Shown piece by piece: positions 5,013-36,150 of a DNA stretch of 36,150 nucleotides. The translations under genes and the position numbers were made by a program. Source of the DNA: Eubacteriaceae bacterium (GTDB lineage Bacteria > Bacillota > Clostridia > Eubacteriales > Anaerofustaceae); NCBI GenBank assembly GCA_017531485.1, contig JAFXKY010000018.1:1-36150 (forward strand). Reading direction: 5' to 3'. The notes under the pieces were generated by a model. It searched no databases. It was not told where the DNA came from and saw only the letters and a list, made by a program, of their open reading frames with translations. Numbering within the stretch: position 1 is the stretch's first letter; each line of letters opens with the position of its first letter.

Positions 5013-5353
5013 AAGCTGTAAGCAGGCTCATAAGCCGGGTTCTGTTCTAATGACCATCTATCTTGACATACCGTCACCGGCAGCCTAAAGCGACTTACCA
5101 TGGGCGGGACGGGCCGCCCCTTTAATGCCCTTTCTTAGTCTTGCTCCGAATGGGGTTTACACGTCCGGACAGTTACCTGCCCGACTGTGAGCTCTTACCT
5201 CACCCTTTCACCCTTACCTTATAAAAGGCGGTTTCCTTTCTGTTGCACTTTCCTTAGAGTTGCCTCCACCGGACGTTATCCGGCATTCTGCCCTATGGAG
5301 CCCGGACTTTCCTCGCGGTCTCCCACGCGGTCAAACGGCTTGCTTACAGCTTT
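5012..5353 (-). ncRNA. rnpB: RNase P RNA, bacterial class
   Basis: This is the catalytic RNA that trims tRNA 5' leaders. Read on the minus strand, the 5' end (near 5353) contains the conserved GAGGAAAGTCCGGGCTCC block (about 5300-5318), and the 3' end contains ACAGAACCCGGCTTAT (about 5031-5046), the two most conserved RNase P RNA signatures. The terminal P1 helix is perfect over 11 bp: AAGCTGTAAGC at 5342-5352 pairs with GCTTACAGCTT at 5013-5023. The length of about 342 nt fits the family. Ends are inferred from P1 and may be off by a few bases. Confidence 0.95.
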
Positions 5354-7631: not shown

Positions 7632-7894
7632 CATAAAAACCGTTGAAAAAGAGTAGTAACCGATAATTGAAATTCAAGAGAGTCCCGTAAGGTGCGATGG
7701 GATAAGGGAGATTACGGCGAATGGACTTTTGAGGGCTTAGCGAAAGGAAACGAGTAGCGAGGACGGGGACCTTACCCGTTATCAGCAAGGCGCGTATGGA
7801 TGTACGTGGAGCGAGTGGGTGCTTTTGCACCAATTTGGGTGGTATCGCAGAATACGTCTTTTGTCCCATGTTTTTGGGGTAAAAGGCTTTTTTT
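7632..7894 (+). promoter_or_regulatory. Tryptophan T-box riboswitch leader
   Basis: This leader reads the charging state of tRNA and allows transcription onward when the tRNA is uncharged. The near-universal T-box sequence appears as GGGTGGTATCGC at 7837-7848, with TGGT (7840-7843) as the bulge that pairs with the tRNA NCCA end. A stem-III hairpin GGTGC-TTTT-GCACC (7818-7831) lies just upstream. In stem I, AGTAGTAA (7652-7660) and GAATGGA (7719-7725) form the expected specifier-loop sides, so the specifier is TGG at 7722-7724, the tryptophan codon. An intrinsic terminator ends the leader. The Trp reading agrees with the downstream genes. The exact stem I fold is inferred, not computed. Confidence 0.92.
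7856..7894 (+). terminator. T-box regulated terminator
   Basis: GTCTTTTGTCCC (7856-7867) pairs over 12 bp, including G-T pairs, with GGGGTAAAAGGC (7876-7887), followed by seven T residues (7888-7894). It immediately follows the T-box and is mutually exclusive with the antiterminator in this riboswitch class. Confidence 0.93.
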
Positions 7895-27433: not shown

Positions 27434-28891
27434 TCATAATCCCCGATATTCATCTGCCAGCATTTCCCACAAAGGAACCGCAGAATACGGCGCACTGCCG
27501 CCTGAGGGAATAAGGACAGTCATGGCATAAGTTCTTTCCCCCGCAGGGAAATATCCCGTGAACCAGCTGTGGTGCGCTCCTCCTTCTCCGTTTTCCGCAG
27601 TGCCCGTCTTGCCTGCGGCTTGCGGGATATTTATAAACTCCGCACTGCCCGTAACGCAGGTCTGCCTGAAAAGCGTCTGAAGGGCTTTTACGGTCTTTTC
27701 TTTCAGCCCGAGGGTAAATACACCACTCTCACTTTTCCCGTCAAACATCTCATTTCCCGCAGGGTCGGTGATCTTTGAAATAATGTGCGGAGTTGTGATT
27801 TTCCCGCCTGACGCTATTGCGGAGGTTATCTTGTTTATGAGATAAACACTTGCCTGAATATTCCCCTGCCCGAGGGAAGCGTTGAAGATATCCATGTCGT
27901 TGTAAAGATACTCCGGAACGAAGCTGTAATAATCATCATACTCAAGAATGAATTCATGTCCGGGAAAGCCGTACTCACAAAATCCCCACTTCCTCGCAAG
28001 CAGAAGTGCCCTGCTTATTATCACATCCCCCTTCTTTTCGCATAAAAGACTGTTTACGTAATACGCCCACTCGTTGCAGGAAATGCCGAACGCCTCCGCC
28101 ATACTCATCTTCCCGTGGACGGCTTTTCCGCTGCAGTGCCTTACTTCCTCACCGACCATAAACTCCCCGTGGCAGACAAATTCATCTTCAGGGGTAATAA
28201 GTCCTTCTTCGATCGCCGCAGCGGCGGAAATGATCTTCATGATGCTTCCCGGCGGATAAGACAGAACGTTCAGGTTAAGCTCGCTGCCGTAAGTCGCCAT
28301 GACGATGATCTCGCCGCTTTCGCAGTCCGTGAGGGTCACGGCGACGGTGTCGTAACTTTTTTCTTCAGCATATTCCGAAATGATCTCTTCGAAGTTTCTC
28401 TGGGCGACATAATCAAGGGTGAGGGTTATGTCACAGCCTTCGTTTATGTGTTCGCCGATGACGGTGGCTCCCATGTCTTCAAGGAGCCTGCCGCCGGCAT
28501 CTGCCATACAGTAAACCCCTATGGCACTTCCGCCGCGGAGCAGTTCGTCGTAAATGAGATTTATGCCGTTTATTCCATAAGATCCCCCTTCCGTAGTATC
28601 AAAAGGATCCGTCTCTGTCTTTCCCACCACCTGTGATGCGCAGGCGGGATAATTTTCCCTCGGCAAAGACACCGTCGGGAAAATTTCCGAGAAAGTGTGG
28701 TTGAAGGATATGCCCGTGCGGTCGGTGATGTTGCCGCGGGGGTAGATGGTTTCGACTTTTCTGTAATACTGTCCCGCAAGTTCCCCGAGAGCGTCCTTAT
28801 CGTAAAATACCATGCATTTTACGGTTAAAAATGACAAAAATACAAATGATGTAAGTATGAGATATGTCGCAGATCTTATTCTTTTTTCCAT
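27434..28891 (-). CDS. Class B penicillin-binding protein (transpeptidase, PBP2/SpoVD-like)
   Basis: This is a 485-residue membrane-anchored D,D-transpeptidase that cross-links peptidoglycan. One N-terminal membrane segment (about 8-28) is followed by a short dimerisation region containing YPRGNITDRTG (50-60), and then the transpeptidase domain with SIMK (216-219), SCN (271-273) and KTG (428-430), a complete catalytic set. It is shorter than the housekeeping PBP2 or FtsI and has no PASTA domains. I start it at MEKRIRS, preceded by GGGAGG; a 44-codon upstream extension has no ribosome site. It is divergent from a DL-endopeptidase gene 110 bp away. No clear terminator separates it from miaB downstream. 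A specialised elongation or sporulation role is possible but not proven. Confidence 0.9.
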   Translation of the reverse strand: MEKRIRSATYLILTSFVFLSFLTVKCMVFYDKDALGELAGQYYRKVETIYPRGNITDRTGISFNHTFSEIFPTVSLPRENYPACASQVVGKTETDPFDTTEGGSYGINGINLIYDELLRGGSAIGVYCMADAGGRLLEDMGATVIGEHINEGCDITLTLDYVAQRNFEEIISEYAEEKSYDTVAVTLTDCESGEIIVMATYGSELNLNVLSYPPGSIMKIISAAAAIEEGLITPEDEFVCHGEFMVGEEVRHCSGKAVHGKMSMAEAFGISCNEWAYYVNSLLCEKKGDVIISRALLLARKWGFCEYGFPGHEFILEYDDYYSFVPEYLYNDMDIFNASLGQGNIQASVYLINKITSAIASGGKITTPHIISKITDPAGNEMFDGKSESGVFTLGLKEKTVKALQTLFRQTCVTGSAEFINIPQAAGKTGTAENGEGGAHHSWFTGYFPAGERTYAMTVLIPSGGSAPYSAVPLWEMLADEYRGL

Positions 28892-29000
28892 AATGCCTCC
28901 CGTAGGGATTTTTGACGGGAGAAAGAAAAATATTCCCTGTGTCTGCAACAAAATATCTCTTTTGCATATATTGTAGGTAGTAAAAAAACAGGAGAAACAT

Positions 29001-30275
29001 ATGAAACAATTATCCCTCGGCAAGACAGGACCGTATGTTGAGCTTTTACAGAGCGTACTTAAAAAATACGGCTATTATGACGGCAACATCGACGGCATCT
29101 TCGGAAATATGACGAAACGCGCGGTGACGGAATTTCAGGAACAGGCAGGGCTTTATCCCGACGGCATCGTGGGAAAAAGGACGTGGGGCGTTCTCACGCC
29201 GCTCATAAACGGTTATTTTATTCATACCGTATCATCGGGAGATACTTTTTATGATCTCGCAAAGAGATACTCTGCCGACCTTCGGCTGATATTGTCCGCC
29301 AATCCCCAAAAGGATCCCGAAAACTTAAAGATCGGCGAAGAAGTGATAATCCCCATTCAGGGCGGGATCGTCCCGACAGATGTGAGCTATTCATATCCCA
29401 TCATGAACATAAACATCAATTCCCTCTTTGTGCGTTTTCCGTTTCTCAGAAGGGAAAACGTGGGAAAGAGCGTTCTGAGAAACGACATCCCTGCGATCAT
29501 CTTCGGGGAAGGGAAAAGGAAAGTGATGTATAACGCATCGCATCACGCCAACGAATGGATCACGAGCGTCGTCCTCATGAAATATCTCGAAGACATCTGC
29601 ACAGCATACGTCCTCGGTGAAGATATTTTCGGCATCCCGGCAAGGGAGATATATGAAAACACGAGCATATATTTCATTCCGATGGTAAATCCCGACGGAG
29701 TGAATCTCGTTACGGGGGAACTCTCCGACATTTCCGGAGCTTATCAGTACGCAAGAAAAATAACTCCCGCCACACTCCCTTTCCCGTCTTCATGGGCGGC
29801 AAACATCAGGGGAGTGGACCTTAATTCCAATTATCCCGCAAAGTGGGAAGAAGCAAGAAAAACAAAATTCTCCCTCGGATACACCTCCCCCGGCCCTGTG
29901 GAATATGTCGGCACATCTCCTCTCAGCGAGCCCGAATCAAGAGCCATGGCGGAATACAGCAATAAAAACAATTTCGCCCTCACCCTTTCTTATCACACTC
30001 AGGGTGAAGTGATATTTTATATCTTCGACGATTTTGACCCGCCCATGGCGGATGAGTACGCCGAAGTCTTTTCTTCTGTCAGCGGATATATCCTGTCAGA
30101 ACCTTCCCCGCTCAGCGCATATGCAGGTTACAAAGACTGGTTCATTCAATCCTTCAACCGCCCCGGATTTACTGTGGAATGCGGCATCGGGCAAAACCCC
30201 ATACCAATAAGTCAGTTTGATGAGATATACCGCGACAATCTCGGAATCCTCACCCTTGCGGCGGCGGGAGAGTGA
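29001..30275 (+). CDS. Peptidoglycan-binding LysM M14 peptidase (gamma-D-glutamyl-meso-diaminopimelate endopeptidase type)
   Basis: This 424-residue zinc enzyme is predicted to cut the D-Glu-meso-DAP bond of wall peptides. Residues 1-68 are a PG_binding_1 domain (YGYYDGNIDGIFGNMTKRAV), 72-118 a LysM repeat (HTVSSGDTFYDLAKRY), and 130-424 an M14 peptidase. Zinc ligands are His182 and Glu185 in HHANEW and His332 in SYHTQG; the general base is Glu393 in TVECGIG. GVDLNSNYPA (271-280) resembles the DL-endopeptidase GVDLNxxFP signature rather than the carboxylate-binding Asn-Arg pair of true carboxypeptidases. No signal peptide is present, as in spore or mother-cell lytic enzymes. A CATATATT element upstream resembles a sporulation sigma -10. 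Confidence 0.9.
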   Translation: MKQLSLGKTGPYVELLQSVLKKYGYYDGNIDGIFGNMTKRAVTEFQEQAGLYPDGIVGKRTWGVLTPLINGYFIHTVSSGDTFYDLAKRYSADLRLILSANPQKDPENLKIGEEVIIPIQGGIVPTDVSYSYPIMNININSLFVRFPFLRRENVGKSVLRNDIPAIIFGEGKRKVMYNASHHANEWITSVVLMKYLEDICTAYVLGEDIFGIPAREIYENTSIYFIPMVNPDGVNLVTGELSDISGAYQYARKITPATLPFPSSWAANIRGVDLNSNYPAKWEEARKTKFSLGYTSPGPVEYVGTSPLSEPESRAMAEYSNKNNFALTLSYHTQGEVIFYIFDDFDPPMADEYAEVFSSVSGYILSEPSPLSAYAGYKDWFIQSFNRPGFTVECGIGQNPIPISQFDEIYRDNLGILTLAAAGE

Positions 30276-31501: not shown

Positions 31502-31697
31502 CGATCCCCCTGATGAGGGCGTCAAAGCACCGTGCATCCGTCAAAATCTGCGGCAAGCTCCGATTCTGACTCCGCAGGTGCTCCTCCGCCCTGTTCCGCT
31601 GAAATGGGATTTCAGCGGGTTTGGTTGGTGGAACACCCGTTTTTCCCTGACATTGTGCGTATCGCATCCCCCTTTATCCCCCTTATCCTAAGGGGGA
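31502..31697. repeat. Dispersed repeat, family 2, copy C
   Basis: This unit starts CGATCCCCCTGATGAGGGCG and ends with ATCCCCCTTTATCCCCCTTA then CCTAAGGGGGA. The part 31,547-31,697 (151 bp) is the reverse complement of 36,000-36,150 with only two visible differences. It contains the inverted repeat CCGCTGAAAT-GGG-ATTTCAGCGG (31,606-31,618 region). It follows directly after the LysM/GH18-like gene. Confidence 0.88.
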
Positions 31698-31759: not shown

Positions 31760-32920
31760 TTATTTTTCTTCGTCAACGCTCAATTCCACCACTTCTGCAT
31801 CTTCAAGCTGTTCATCGAGAAATTCATTGATCTTTTCGTCGCTGTCTTCGCCGTTTGCGATCTTTTCGAGCTTTGCGTTGACCATTTCGTTGTTTCTGAG
31901 CTGTTCCTGTTCGTCAAACTCTACTTCACCTTCGATTGCGAGGGTCTGTCCGATATATTTTCCGTTTTCGTCAAGACCTGCCTGCGCGCGGAGTTTTGCG
32001 AGCTTTTTCGGGGATTTCAGACGGAGAACGAGGATAATGAGAACAAGAAGGACAGTGCAGAGAACGCCGATGGTTATCCACATTATCTTCATAAGGTTGG
32101 ACTGTTTGAGGCCGAGGTTGATACTTGTAAACATTTCCTGCATTTCGGGATGATCAGCGATCTTTCCCTGCTTGCAGATCATGTGTACGCTGTAAGAATA
32201 GCCTTTGTAAACCGTGAAGTACATCTTTCCTTCGCCGACTTTCACAAGACCGTCTTCTCTTTCTTTCTCTTCTTCGCCTTCAGCATTTTCACCTTCGGCA
32301 TTTTCGCCTTCTGCGCCTTCGGCAGTATCTTCGGCATTCTGATCCTGTTTATCTTCTTCTTTCTTGTCTTCTTTGTTTTCTTCCTTCTTTTCGTCTTCTT
32401 TCTTTTCTTCGTCCTTACCTTCTTCGCCTTCTTCTTCGGCTACTTCGGAAGGATCTCCGAAATAATCATAAGACATTTCCCAGAAGTCAAATCCGTTTAT
32501 ATTCACGAGGGTCACGCCCGTCATCTCCGTAACGCCGCTGACGTTTGAAAGACGCTTTGTGAAATAATCGTCTTTCATGTATGTTGCGTCGTTGTATGTA
32601 GCGGAGAAGACTTCCCCGCCGACGGAATAATCATCGATTGTGAGTTCCGGATCTCTTTCGCTTTCGGAAAGATGCTCGTAATAATTTGTTGCAGAGAAAG
32701 TAACGGAAACGCCGTCTCCGAGAATGATACTCATGAGGTTTTCGTTTACCTTGCTCATCTTTGAATAAGCTTCTTCGGAAAGATTGATGGTGTAGCGACA
32801 TTCGTAGTTATAGTATTCCCTTGCAAAGACCGGAGATATGACAGCGCATACCATGATCAATGCGAGAATGAGGGAGAATACTCTCTTCGTTGTTTTATTT
32901 TCAGTTCTGTATCTTTTCAT
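31760..32920 (-). CDS. Secreted-domain membrane protein with long acidic linker
   Basis: This is a 386-residue protein of unknown function. A signal peptide (1-33, ending SPVFA) leads an extracellular domain (about 34-155) rich in Tyr and Ser. A very acidic Glu/Lys/Asp low-complexity stretch follows (160-223), with repeats of the type AEGEN. A second extracellular piece (225-275) is followed by a transmembrane helix (about 280-300) and a charged cytoplasmic tail (301-386). The outside part (CRYTINLSEEAYSKM) resembles the LppM-like beta-barrel class only loosely. I use the ATG at 32,920 because it is followed by the signal peptide; an upstream TTG-initiated frame lacks a ribosome site. It follows gatD by 89 bp on the same strand. 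Confidence 0.75.
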   Translation of the reverse strand: MKRYRTENKTTKRVFSLILALIMVCAVISPVFAREYYNYECRYTINLSEEAYSKMSKVNENLMSIILGDGVSVTFSATNYYEHLSESERDPELTIDDYSVGGEVFSATYNDATYMKDDYFTKRLSNVSGVTEMTGVTLVNINGFDFWEMSYDYFGDPSEVAEEEGEEGKDEEKKEDEKKEENKEDKKEEDKQDQNAEDTAEGAEGENAEGENAEGEEEKEREDGLVKVGEGKMYFTVYKGYSYSVHMICKQGKIADHPEMQEMFTSINLGLKQSNLMKIMWITIGVLCTVLLVLIILVLRLKSPKKLAKLRAQAGLDENGKYIGQTLAIEGEVEFDEQEQLRNNEMVNAKLEKIANGEDSDEKINEFLDEQLEDAEVVELSVDEEK

Positions 32921-33009: not shown

Positions 33010-33780
33010 CTATTTTTCCAGACGACTTGCGTCATATTTTTCGATCTTCAGGTCGATGAAGTCCTGAATTCGTTTGTTTGAAGCGTCTTCGAAGGCAAAT
33101 TCCGGCATGGTAAGTTCAAGATCGCTTCCCTTGTCTTTTAAGATCTTGATTATGATCGATGCTGCAAACGCAGGGTTCTTGACAAAGACAGGACCGAGAG
33201 CGTTGGTGAAGATAAAGCCATTCTTTACGAGGCCTTCGTCTTCCTTGTGGCAGTTGCCATAGCCGTATGTTACTTTTCCGAGGCTCTGTTCGTCATGAAT
33301 GAGAACGTCTGCCATCTGGATCTGTCCGCCGTATATTTTAAGTTCGTTTCCGTAAAGGTTCATCGTGAAGACTTCGTCGTTTGAATAAGTGATGTTTCTT
33401 TCGCGGATGCTGACGTCTACGATATCAAGCCCCGGATATACTTTTCCGTCAGATCTGAGGATATTTTTGGAAAAAAGGGCGATAGTCGTTCCGATGACGA
33501 TGATCGTTTTGCCCTTATCAAGATAATCCACAAACATATCCCTTTTTTCTTTCAGGACGCTTGCCATATTTATCGCCGTCCTGAGTTCCCCCGGAGAGAA
33601 AAACAGGATGTCATATTCATCAATGGTAAAGTCGTCATAAAAGGAATTTATTCTCGAAAAGTCAAATTCCGCGCCGAGCATCTTCGTGACTTTCTCAAAA
33701 GCCATGATGTTTCCCAGATCCCCGTGCAGGTTAAGGCTGTCCGCAAAGCAGTAACATAATTTAAGCGTATTTTTTTCCAT
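33010..33780 (-). CDS. gatD: GatD-like glutamine amidotransferase lacking catalytic Cys and His
   Basis: This 256-residue protein belongs to the class I glutaminase family that supplies ammonia to MurT for amidation of D-Glu in lipid II. The family start LNLHGDLGNI (16-25) and the late GKVTYGYGN (168-176) are well conserved. At the nucleophile elbow, where GatD normally has ICGGYQ, this protein reads IGTTIA (96-101), so the catalytic Cys is Gly97. At the second site, normally TYLHGP, it reads TNALGP (192-197), so the catalytic His is Leu195. Without these it should not hydrolyse glutamine. The gene lies 3 bp after murT and is surely co-expressed with it. It may be structural, or the pair may use another nitrogen source or substrate. 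Confidence 0.85.
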   Translation of the reverse strand: MEKNTLKLCYCFADSLNLHGDLGNIMAFEKVTKMLGAEFDFSRINSFYDDFTIDEYDILFFSPGELRTAINMASVLKEKRDMFVDYLDKGKTIIVIGTTIALFSKNILRSDGKVYPGLDIVDVSIRERNITYSNDEVFTMNLYGNELKIYGGQIQMADVLIHDEQSLGKVTYGYGNCHKEDEGLVKNGFIFTNALGPVFVKNPAFAASIIIKILKDKGSDLELTMPEFAFEDASNKRIQDFIDLKIEKYDASRLEK

Positions 33781-33783
33781 AAA

Positions 33784-35142
33784 TTACTGACCTTTCTTAA
33801 TGAAGCTCTTGAAGAACTTGATGTTGCGAAGGGGCGCCACGAGATAGATCTTGTCGTAATCGTATTTTACTATCTCATCAAGGACCGTCTTCGGGTCTTC
33901 GCTGTCGATGAAGTCAACTTCATCTTCCGTGAATCCGTCATAATAAAGCCTGTTGACCTGATCCATGGCGATATAATCCGAGAAGATGAGGATCTTGCCA
34001 AGACTGCCTCTGAGAGGAGTGAAGTCCGTTTCGTAAGCGTAATACGTGTTGGTGTAATGCGGGACGAACTTCGGACGTCTTTCGGGGATGATGCAAAGAC
34101 CGATGACGATGAGCTTTTCGCCTTCGTCCTTTGCGATGGCATCGACGCACATTCTGACAGTTTCCGGGTTGCCGTTTTTGTTTCTGAGAATGTGGATGTC
34201 TTTTCCTTTGTAAGTGATGATCTCGTCACGTCCTTCGATGTTTACGAAATTCGAAAGTGCGGCGCTGATCTTTTCGTTTTCGATTCCGAGATAGTTGCAT
34301 ACACAGCTTACAGCCGCATAATTATAAAGCATTATCGGCGTATCATACGGCATGATGTGGGTGATGCCGCCGACTTCGAATGTCTTTTTGTCGAAATCCA
34401 CGTTTTCCACCATGACCGTATTTGCGAGGGATGATGAGAAATTGCAGTGCGTGCAGTAAAACTCGCCTTCGTTGGTGGAGTTCATGTATTCAAACCTGAT
34501 GGGAGCTGAGCAGTACGGACAAGGAAGGGTGACTTCGTACTTGCCTTCTTTGTTGTAAGAAAGGCTGTTTTTGCTTACTCCGAAATATCTCACTTCACCT
34601 GCGAGGTCTTCGTAAGACTTGCTTCTGGGCTCGTCGTTGTTGAGGAACATTCTCATGTTTTCCGGCATATATTTTCTTAATATCTGATAAATAAAGTCCG
34701 GATCCCCGTTGCGGTGAACCTGATCCTGCATGATGTTGGTGATGACGATATTTCTGCCGCTGAGGTGGCGGATGATGTAAGGAAAGCTTCTTTCGTCAAC
34801 TTCGATGAGGATATAATCCGCGTCGATCTTTCCCGCAAGGTTCGAACCTGAAATGAGGACGCTTGCGGCGCCGTTGAGCATGTTCGAGCCTGAAAGGTTG
34901 GCGATGACTTTCTTGCCTGCCTGAGTGAGTGTGTGATATAAAAGATTTGTCGTTGTGGACTTTCCGTTTGTGCCGGTGATGAAGATTACCTTCTCCGGAT
35001 CGATGTCCGTAAAACCGAGCATAAAATTCTTGTCGATCTTATAAGCAAGCATACCCGGGAAGTCTGTTCCTCTTCCGGGGAAGATGAGCTTGATGAGATA
35101 AGCCGCAAGTTTTGACAGCCAAAGGGCGATTTTAAACTTCAT
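33784..35142 (-). CDS. murT: MurT-like Mur ligase-family protein
   Basis: This 452-residue ATP-dependent ligase-fold protein resembles the lipid II isoglutaminyl synthase subunit MurT. The RGTDFPG segment (24-30), P-loop GTNGKSTT (57-64), and a zinc ribbon with Cys208, Cys211, Cys230 and Cys233 are in the expected places, and the C-terminal Mur ligase domain is present. Three conserved stretches differ: the usual NxFRDQLDR motif reads NIMQDQVHRNGD (136-147), the KNPAG segment reads NKNGNPE (321-327), and the DGRD-SWIWDxDF region that completes the GatD triad reads PERRPKF...YETDF (353-374). The start at MKFKIALW follows AGAGG; upstream Met codons are less likely. It heads a leftward unit with gatD and the acidic membrane protein. 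Confidence 0.85.
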   Translation of the reverse strand: MKFKIALWLSKLAAYLIKLIFPGRGTDFPGMLAYKIDKNFMLGFTDIDPEKVIFITGTNGKSTTTNLLYHTLTQAGKKVIANLSGSNMLNGAASVLISGSNLAGKIDADYILIEVDERSFPYIIRHLSGRNIVITNIMQDQVHRNGDPDFIYQILRKYMPENMRMFLNNDEPRSKSYEDLAGEVRYFGVSKNSLSYNKEGKYEVTLPCPYCSAPIRFEYMNSTNEGEFYCTHCNFSSSLANTVMVENVDFDKKTFEVGGITHIMPYDTPIMLYNYAAVSCVCNYLGIENEKISAALSNFVNIEGRDEIITYKGKDIHILRNKNGNPETVRMCVDAIAKDEGEKLIVIGLCIIPERRPKFVPHYTNTYYAYETDFTPLRGSLGKILIFSDYIAMDQVNRLYYDGFTEDEVDFIDSEDPKTVLDEIVKYDYDKIYLVAPLRNIKFFKSFIKKGQ

Positions 35143-35202: not shown

Positions 35203-35231
35203 ATTATAATCCAATAATTACCTATTTGCAA
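35203..35231 (-). promoter_or_regulatory. murT promoter
   Basis: On the minus strand, -35 TTGCAA (35,226-35,231) and consensus -10 TATAAT (35,203-35,208) have a 17-bp spacer. Confidence 0.75.
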
Positions 35232-35278: not shown

Positions 35279-35307
35279 TTGACAACCTGAGAGCTAACTG
35301 ATATAAT
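35279..35307 (+). promoter_or_regulatory. tRNA-Trp promoter
   Basis: Consensus -35 TTGACA (35,279-35,284) and -10 TATAAT (35,302-35,307) have a 17-bp spacer, 12 bp before the tRNA. Confidence 0.92.
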
Positions 35308-35319
35308 TATCACCGTTGT

Positions 35320-35395
35320 AGGGGTATAGCTCAGTTGGTAGAGCAGCGGTCTCCAAAACCGCGTGCCGAGGGTTCAAGTCCTTCTGCCCCTGCCA
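35320..35395 (+). tRNA. tRNA-Trp (anticodon CCA), CCA encoded
   Basis: A full cloverleaf is present. The acceptor AGGGGTA pairs with TGCCCCT, the anticodon arm is GCGGT-CTCCAAA-ACCGC with anticodon CCA, and the T arm is GAGGG-TTCAAGT-CCTTC (one G-T pair). The discriminator is G, followed by encoded CCA (35,393-35,395). The T-box leader at 7,632 should sense this tRNA species. Confidence 0.97.
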
Positions 35396-35856: not shown

Positions 35857-35999
35857 ACCCGACAAAATCCCATTTTGTCGGAACAGGGCGGAGGGACACC
35901 TGCAGAGTCAGAATCGGAGCTTGTCGCAGATGCTGACGGATGCACGGTGTTCTGACTCCCCATCCCCCTGTCACCATCGCGGAAAGCCGCTCGCTGACG
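35857..35999. repeat. Dispersed repeat, family 2-related unit E
   Basis: This unit contains CGACAAAATC-CC-ATTTTGTCGG (about 35,868-35,881), then the reverse complement of the GATTCTGACT...CACCGTGCATCCGTC block seen at 31,528-31,575, then CCATCCCCCTGTCACC. It shares its right-hand C-rich hairpin with copy D. The internal hairpin differs in sequence from copy C but keeps the same position and pairing. Confidence 0.75.
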
Positions 36000-36150
36000 T
36001 CCCCCTTAGGATAAGGGGGATAAAGGGGGATGCGATATGCACAAGGTCAGGGAAAAACGGGTGTTCCACCAACCAAACCCGCTGAAATCCCATTTCAGCG
36101 GAACAGGGCGGAGGAGCACCTGCGGAGTCAGAATCGGAGCTTGCCGCAGA
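36000..36150. repeat. Dispersed repeat, family 2, copy D (inverted relative to C, cut by the window end)
   Basis: This 151-bp segment is the reverse complement of 31,547-31,697 with two differences (near 36,040 and 36,046). The C-rich hairpin CCCCCTTA-GGA-TAAGGGGG forms its left end, and the repeat runs off the end of the window. Confidence 0.88.

Follow-up and report, generated by a model that had tools for sequence, protein, structure and literature searches.

The closest described system is MurT-GatD, the lipid II isoglutaminyl synthase of Staphylococcus aureus and Streptococcus pneumoniae, which amidates the alpha-carboxyl of D-Glu (PMC6085368). Glutamine is captured by Arg128 of GatD (PMC5871853), and the glutaminase triad is completed by Asp349 of MurT, the substitution D349N strongly lowering amidation in S. 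aureus (PMC6113224). The C94G variant of S. aureus GatD cannot use glutamine, but at pH 8.5 the complex containing it is able to amidate lipid II from NH3 (PMC3266927). Given that S. aureus MurT needs GatD for the use of NH3 too, either protein alone being inactive (PMC3266927), and that this need persists with the C94G variant, MurT can depend on a dead GatD as its scaffold in this organism. For the ligase itself, replacement of Lys59, Asn85 or Asp112/Glu113 in S. pneumoniae MurT leaves 1-3% of the activity and replacement of Asp136 or Arg140 leaves 10-13%; Asp139 is of little weight, with 71% of the activity remaining when it is replaced (PMC6085368). The FRDQMDR loop lines a proposed ammonia channel (PMC6085368). 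Archaea have MurT relatives that occur without GatD (PMC11915815), and the MurT described here resembles them in having no glutaminase, but differs in that GatD is kept as a separate subunit whereas it is absent from those archaea.

The window analysed here, that is, the whole stretch of 36,150 nucleotides from a Eubacteriaceae bacterium, carries a murT-like and a gatD-like gene on the minus strand (Table 1). As the preliminary description had proposed, both are open and adjacent, with 3 bp between them and no N across the stretch. In profile searches the MurT-like protein matches Pfam Mur_ligase_M and MurT_C. It scores 134 bits against NCBIfam MurT (5.5e-39), without reaching the curated equivalog cut-off of 800 bits, and the GatD-like protein scores 80 bits against NCBIfam GatD (1.3e-22), where the corresponding cut-off of 400 bits is likewise not reached. 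No other family is as near as MurT and GatD in sequence and profile searches, and the closest PDB chains by sequence are the MurT and GatD of S. aureus, S. pneumoniae and S. pyogenes. The monomer model of the GatD-like protein has a pLDDT of 94.5 and S. aureus GatD as its top fold match (6gs2_A, E 1.1e-20), while that of the MurT-like protein has a pLDDT of 85.9 and MurT of S. aureus as the nearest PDB chain by fold; profile and fold searches also gave distant matches of this MurT to the pMur peptide ligases of pseudomurein. The membrane-protein gene reported 89 bp downstream of the pair is at that distance if the ATG at 32920 is its start, and Pfam gave no informative family for it, only a low-complexity CDC45 match.

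Other features of the window include a PBP transpeptidase gene with a divergent PG-binding/LysM/M14 zinc carboxypeptidase gene near the pair (27434-30275), and an identical 25-bp stem-loop present in opposite orientations at 31595-31619 and 36078-36102, which sits in a longer dispersed repeat (about 31532-31640 and 35880-36102) reading as similar spurious ORFs. A tRNA gene lies on the plus strand at 35320-35392, with a perfect sigma-70-type promoter match directly upstream (35279-35307). An RNase P RNA (5015-5346, minus strand) and a T-box leader (7634-7871, plus strand) were also found.

The window GatD belongs to a form, here called type A, that has Gly and Leu at the catalytic Cys and His positions and the motif TN.LGP. 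The assignment of Gly97 and Leu195 to these positions, made in the preliminary description, holds in pairwise and multiple alignments against S. aureus GatD. The accompanying claims about MurT were also sound: the triad Asp349 is Asn in the window, the FRDQ segment is altered at its second Asp, with the first Asp and the Arg retained, and the P-loop and four zinc cysteines are in place. Compared with the isoglutaminyl synthase of S. aureus and S. pneumoniae, the window pair therefore lacks the Cys, His and Arg128 of GatD and Asp349 of MurT, and it has a larger KNP loop and another set of invariant residues. The substitutions of the S. aureus laboratory mutants GatD C94G and MurT D349N are thus both natural in type A (PMC3266927, PMC6113224), which differs from those mutants by about a dozen further conserved changes and by a racemase gene in many genomes.

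Table 1. Features of the murT-gatD-like locus, in window coordinates; residue numbers of canonical proteins are those of S. aureus.
Feature	Position	Strand	Remarks
MurT-like ligase	33784..35142	minus	452 aa from ATG; an alternative TTG start at 35214 would lengthen it
P-loop TGTNGKSTT, intact	34945..34971	minus	catalytic Lys kept in all MurTs beside a dead GatD that have letters there
Loop MQDQVHR (canonical FRDQMDR)	34705..34725	minus	second Asp is His; Gln in 89% of type A
Zinc ribbon, four Cys, intact	34438..34515	minus	from alignment
KNGNP, the KNP active-site loop plus two residues	34159..34173	minus	KQENP in most type A
Asn at MurT Asp349 position	34042..34044	minus	Asn in 92% of type A
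GatD-like protein	33010..33780	minus	256 aa; glutaminase-dead
IGTTIA replacing ICGGYQ	33478..33495	minus	Gly97 at catalytic Cys94 position
Thr131 replacing Arg128	33388..33390	minus	Val in 80% of type A
TNALGP replacing TYLHGP	33190..33207	minus	Leu195 at catalytic His189 position
Downstream gene	31760..32920	minus	possibly co-transcribed with the pair; N-terminal hydrophobic segment, acidic low-complexity stretch, further TM-like segment

Another Cys/His pair at the active site or a sequencing error, either of which could have accounted for the missing residues, was not seen. Alignments of 20 and 48 type A GatDs hold no invariant Cys or His, so that no relocated catalytic pair is visible and this candidate is rejected. 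Sequencing error is ruled out because identical substitutions recur in dozens of independent genomes; decay is rejected too, given that the changes are fixed across dozens of genomes.

Residues of the ligase are retained in essentially all of 133 aligned dead pairs, namely the ATP-binding Lys, the acceptor Asn, the Mg-site Asp-Glu, Asp136, Arg140, the zinc cysteines and the Lys of KNP; the loop residue that is altered in MurTs beside a dead GatD is Asp139. An intact MurT ligase core is thus well supported by these alignments. In type A the KNP loop of MurT becomes KQENP and D.SW becomes N.FY, each at 92-97%. The type A GatDs (48 sequences) have Glu65, Asp135, Tyr172 and Lys245 as invariants, Glu127 and Asn193 at 90% or more, and Gln153 and Ile154 nearly invariant. 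The glutamine pocket, the MurT Asp and the active-site loop have thus given way to other conserved residues, which we read as the mark of a new function under constraint.

Dead pairs are the rule in the order of the window host, where 33 of 41 genomes have MurT and a GatD with both Cys and His occurs in only three (G031, G034, G039). Type A is carried by Eubacterium callanderi, E. barkeri, E. aggregans, Acetobacterium spp. and Anaerofustis stercorihominis, as well as by Emergencia, Hornefia, Aminicella and Mogibacterium-like MAGs, and none of 18 whole genomes of named type A carriers has a MurT of canonical-level score. Type B combines Gly with Leu, Ile, Val, Ser or Thr, has a TGN motif, retains DxSW and frequently Arg128, and is found in Anaerofustaceae, an RF39-like order, Vescimonas and other Clostridia; these pairs may differ from type A in the amine used. 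Type A' (Ser/Val) is the second copy in the tandem murT-gatD pairs of Mogibacterium-like genomes, where it follows a Gly/Leu copy (L087, L088, L090-L092). The rare type C (L196, L198) has Glu for Cys and Arg for His (IEQGYKYLG, TQLRGP); a link of this type to Erysipelothrix was considered and dropped, the family having given only two genomes. Three loci of another Clostridia family (L302, L303, L305) show a separate loss of the triad, with Ala at Cys and Ser/Thr at His (AVATGFPLLG, THLSGP).

Across the class-wide sample, MurT is present in 158 of 291 genomes, and the Cys is missing from 21 of the 22 readable GatDs beside low-scoring MurTs (L279-L301). The scan of named genomes gave 142 matches with the GatD alignment and 0 with the MurT query alone, and viral contigs gave no match. 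Concatenated trees unite types A, A', B and C in a single clade with a support of 0.97, and of 0.997 with more genomes, these being FastTree values for divergent sequences in which long-branch effects are possible; about three further independent losses are counted within Clostridia (Fitch count 4). The linked loss in two subunits whose genes are both kept, first proposed from the window, is thus a conserved state of a whole clade, and this conservation favours repurposing over decay, as the preliminary description had suggested.

The window assembly (2.17 Mb, 81 contigs) holds a second murT-gatD pair at G000:C41 3303-5472 (L001 60-2229). A second, canonical pair had been suggested as something to look for; the pair is there but is not canonical, being of type B with both Cys and His gone from its GatD (ATGNTLE, TYLLGP). 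A gene for a YmdB-like metallophosphoesterase follows it. No canonical GatD was found in the host assembly, and the remaining GATase_3 match, on contig C43, is HisH as far as can be read from its operon. The host also carries a homologue of the racemase Orr (G000:C43:2649-3695, 4e-127), a candidate source of a D-diamino acid.

Clustering of the neighbours of 80 named loci showed that in 11 type A loci the gene next downstream of gatD encodes an Orr homologue, of the alanine-racemase fold. This neighbour matches racem_Orr (NCBIfam NF040742) at 3.3e-107 and scores 358 bits, below the curated cut-off of 480, so that its substrate may be either Orn or Lys. Given that the 11 loci fall mostly in one clade, the adjacency may have a single origin. 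By eye, the translations around orr in those Eubacterium and Acetobacterium loci that were read include no recognisable ornithine-fermentation genes. Within the order, a strong Orr match (E < 1e-90) was obtained in 26 of 31 dead-pair genomes and in 0 of the 10 genomes whose pair is canonical or missing (Fisher 2.7e-6, without correction for phylogeny); the canonical-only G034 and G039 have no Orr. Of the five dead-pair genomes without such a match, two have type B Val variants and one has a Thr variant, another is an 82%-complete MAG, and the last combines canonical with A-like pairs. All 10 named cultured type A species tested have Orr; in a broader type A set, some of whose loci had been selected for their Orr neighbour, it is present in 29 of 40. 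The racemase link is not universal, since no strong Orr was found in 60 genomes of the RF39-like order (0/60), where dead type B pairs are common. Orr is missing for many type B pairs and also for some of type A, in the RF39-like order and in several further MAGs, and another amine must therefore serve in those genomes. Orr is also common in Clostridia genomes without MurT, where it probably serves ornithine fermentation.

Other neighbours differ between lineages. GlmM and GlmS adjoin the pair in Acetobacterium/Eubacterium, Alr lies upstream of it in RF39-like genomes, and MurJ adjoins the type C pair, which in L196 is flanked by a glutamine-synthetase-like gene as well. An ATP-grasp ligase (CPS / D-Ala-D-Ala ligase-like) adjoins the pair in Mogibacterium-like genomes, where it and a Na+/H+ antiporter-like protein are encoded downstream of the tandem pairs.

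Group B peptidoglycan, in the scheme of Schleifer and Kandler, is that in which cross-links start at the alpha-carboxyl of D-Glu. Acetobacterium has peptidoglycan of this group, and the bridges of E. limosum contain D-Lys/D-Orn. According to a review table, Eubacterium includes type B2alpha peptidoglycan (PMC11382707). We propose that the pair may be a peptidoglycan-precursor ligase derived from MurT-GatD, in which MurT would use ATP to activate the alpha-carboxyl of the stem-peptide D-Glu as an acyl phosphate and GatD, having lost glutamine hydrolysis, would be retained as the structural partner that MurT requires. With no glutaminase in GatD the amine must come from elsewhere, and it would be one other than glutamine-derived ammonia; in the window lineage it would most likely be a free D-diamino acid (D-ornithine or D-lysine) from an Orr-type racemase. 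Placed on D-Glu, this residue could form the branch point for cross-links of group B, which run from D-Glu to D-Ala. What we infer is which carboxyl is the substrate, that GatD acts as a scaffold in this family, which amine is used and that a group B bridge is the product. We give a probability of roughly 0.5 to the reading in which GatD is a scaffold and MurT joins to D-Glu an amine other than ammonia from glutamine, probably a D-diamino acid that serves the group B bridges. The narrower version, in which the type A pair joins an Orr-made D-diamino acid to the alpha-carboxyl of D-Glu and types A', B and C use other amines, is more tentative and would be somewhat likelier to fail than to hold.

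Group B organisms outside the Firmicutes need not use such a dead-pair route, given that the actinobacterium Leifsonia shinshuensis, which is of group B, has a plasmid-borne GatD that retains both Cys and His, the sole Microbacteriaceae copy reached. On this plasmid (L243 3730-6679), a murT that has lost its zinc cysteines, the gatD and a vanY-like M15 peptidase gene lie among metal-resistance genes.

The main rival to the proposed ligase is an amidase that still makes D-iso-glutamine on the precursor, with NH3/NH4+ taken from the cytoplasm. It is chemically possible, since the S. aureus C94G complex uses NH3, glutamine use alone being lost (PMC3266927), and Gly97 of type A is this same change. 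Free ammonia may moreover be plentiful in gut amino-acid fermenters, and the DxSW motif of type B, often accompanied by Arg128, fits such a source. However, the NH3-dependent activity of S. aureus is absent at pH 7.5 (PMC3266927), and the use of free ammonia needs no insertion in the KNP loop, no new pocket invariants and no racemase linkage, all of which type A has. We therefore regard this explanation as unlikely, though it deserves to be kept in view. The intact ligase core, the linkage to Orr and the group B wall of Eubacterium together favour a ligase using an amino acid as the amine over one using free ammonia. The options listed in the preliminary description (another substrate, free ammonia or a non-amidating ligase) are narrowed accordingly, with a non-amidating ligase for an amino-acid amine being favoured.

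A different substrate altogether, such as a teichoic-acid, capsular or small-molecule carboxylate, combined with another amine, would have precedent in the repeated recruitment of Mur-type ligases, which family matches trace to pseudomurein pMur, F430 CfbE and the poly-gamma-glutamate and cyanophycin synthetases, and the DNAAD-motif region, a proposed binder of the stem peptide (PMC6113224), is altered in type A. Given that the acceptor Asn and the Asp-Glu are unaltered and that the neighbours in several lineages are Orr or the cell-wall genes GlmM/GlmS, MurJ and Alr, this is distinctly improbable. Attachment of a small non-diamino amine, such as glycine or an L-amino acid, to D-Glu, as in walls of group B1 or alpha-glycyl type, would leave Orr with another function and would suit the lineages in which type A and type B pairs occur without Orr, but the adjacency and co-occurrence of Orr within the window's own order leave it only a slim chance. 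It is hardly credible that the pairs are pseudogenes or regulatory remnants without ligase activity: three catalytic residues are gone and the scores fall far under the family cut-offs, yet across dozens of species the frames are open, the ligase residues are conserved, the clade has invariants of its own and the folds are confident.

The structure of group B peptidoglycan was described around 1970, and to our knowledge none of the enzymes that form its bridges has been identified so far; our search of the open literature turned up no paper dealing with genes for these bridges. Should the ligase attach an amino acid, it would be the first candidate gene known to us for the D-Glu branch of this wall type. 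The question is directly testable, since both Eubacterium limosum and Acetobacterium woodii can be grown in culture and are genetically workable. GatD is taken to be a glutaminase and a MurT-GatD annotation to be evidence for iso-glutamine in the wall, which looks wrong for many Clostridia, given that the main dead clade extends over several orders, with Eubacterium and Acetobacterium among its members. If our reading is true, a class I glutaminase would have persisted as an inactive scaffold after its synthetase partner switched to another amine. The family covers many gut and acetate-making bacteria, in which the ammonia-making part of the pair is lost and the joining part is kept, and the pair now probably attaches something else, such as a D-amino acid, at the same spot on D-Glu.
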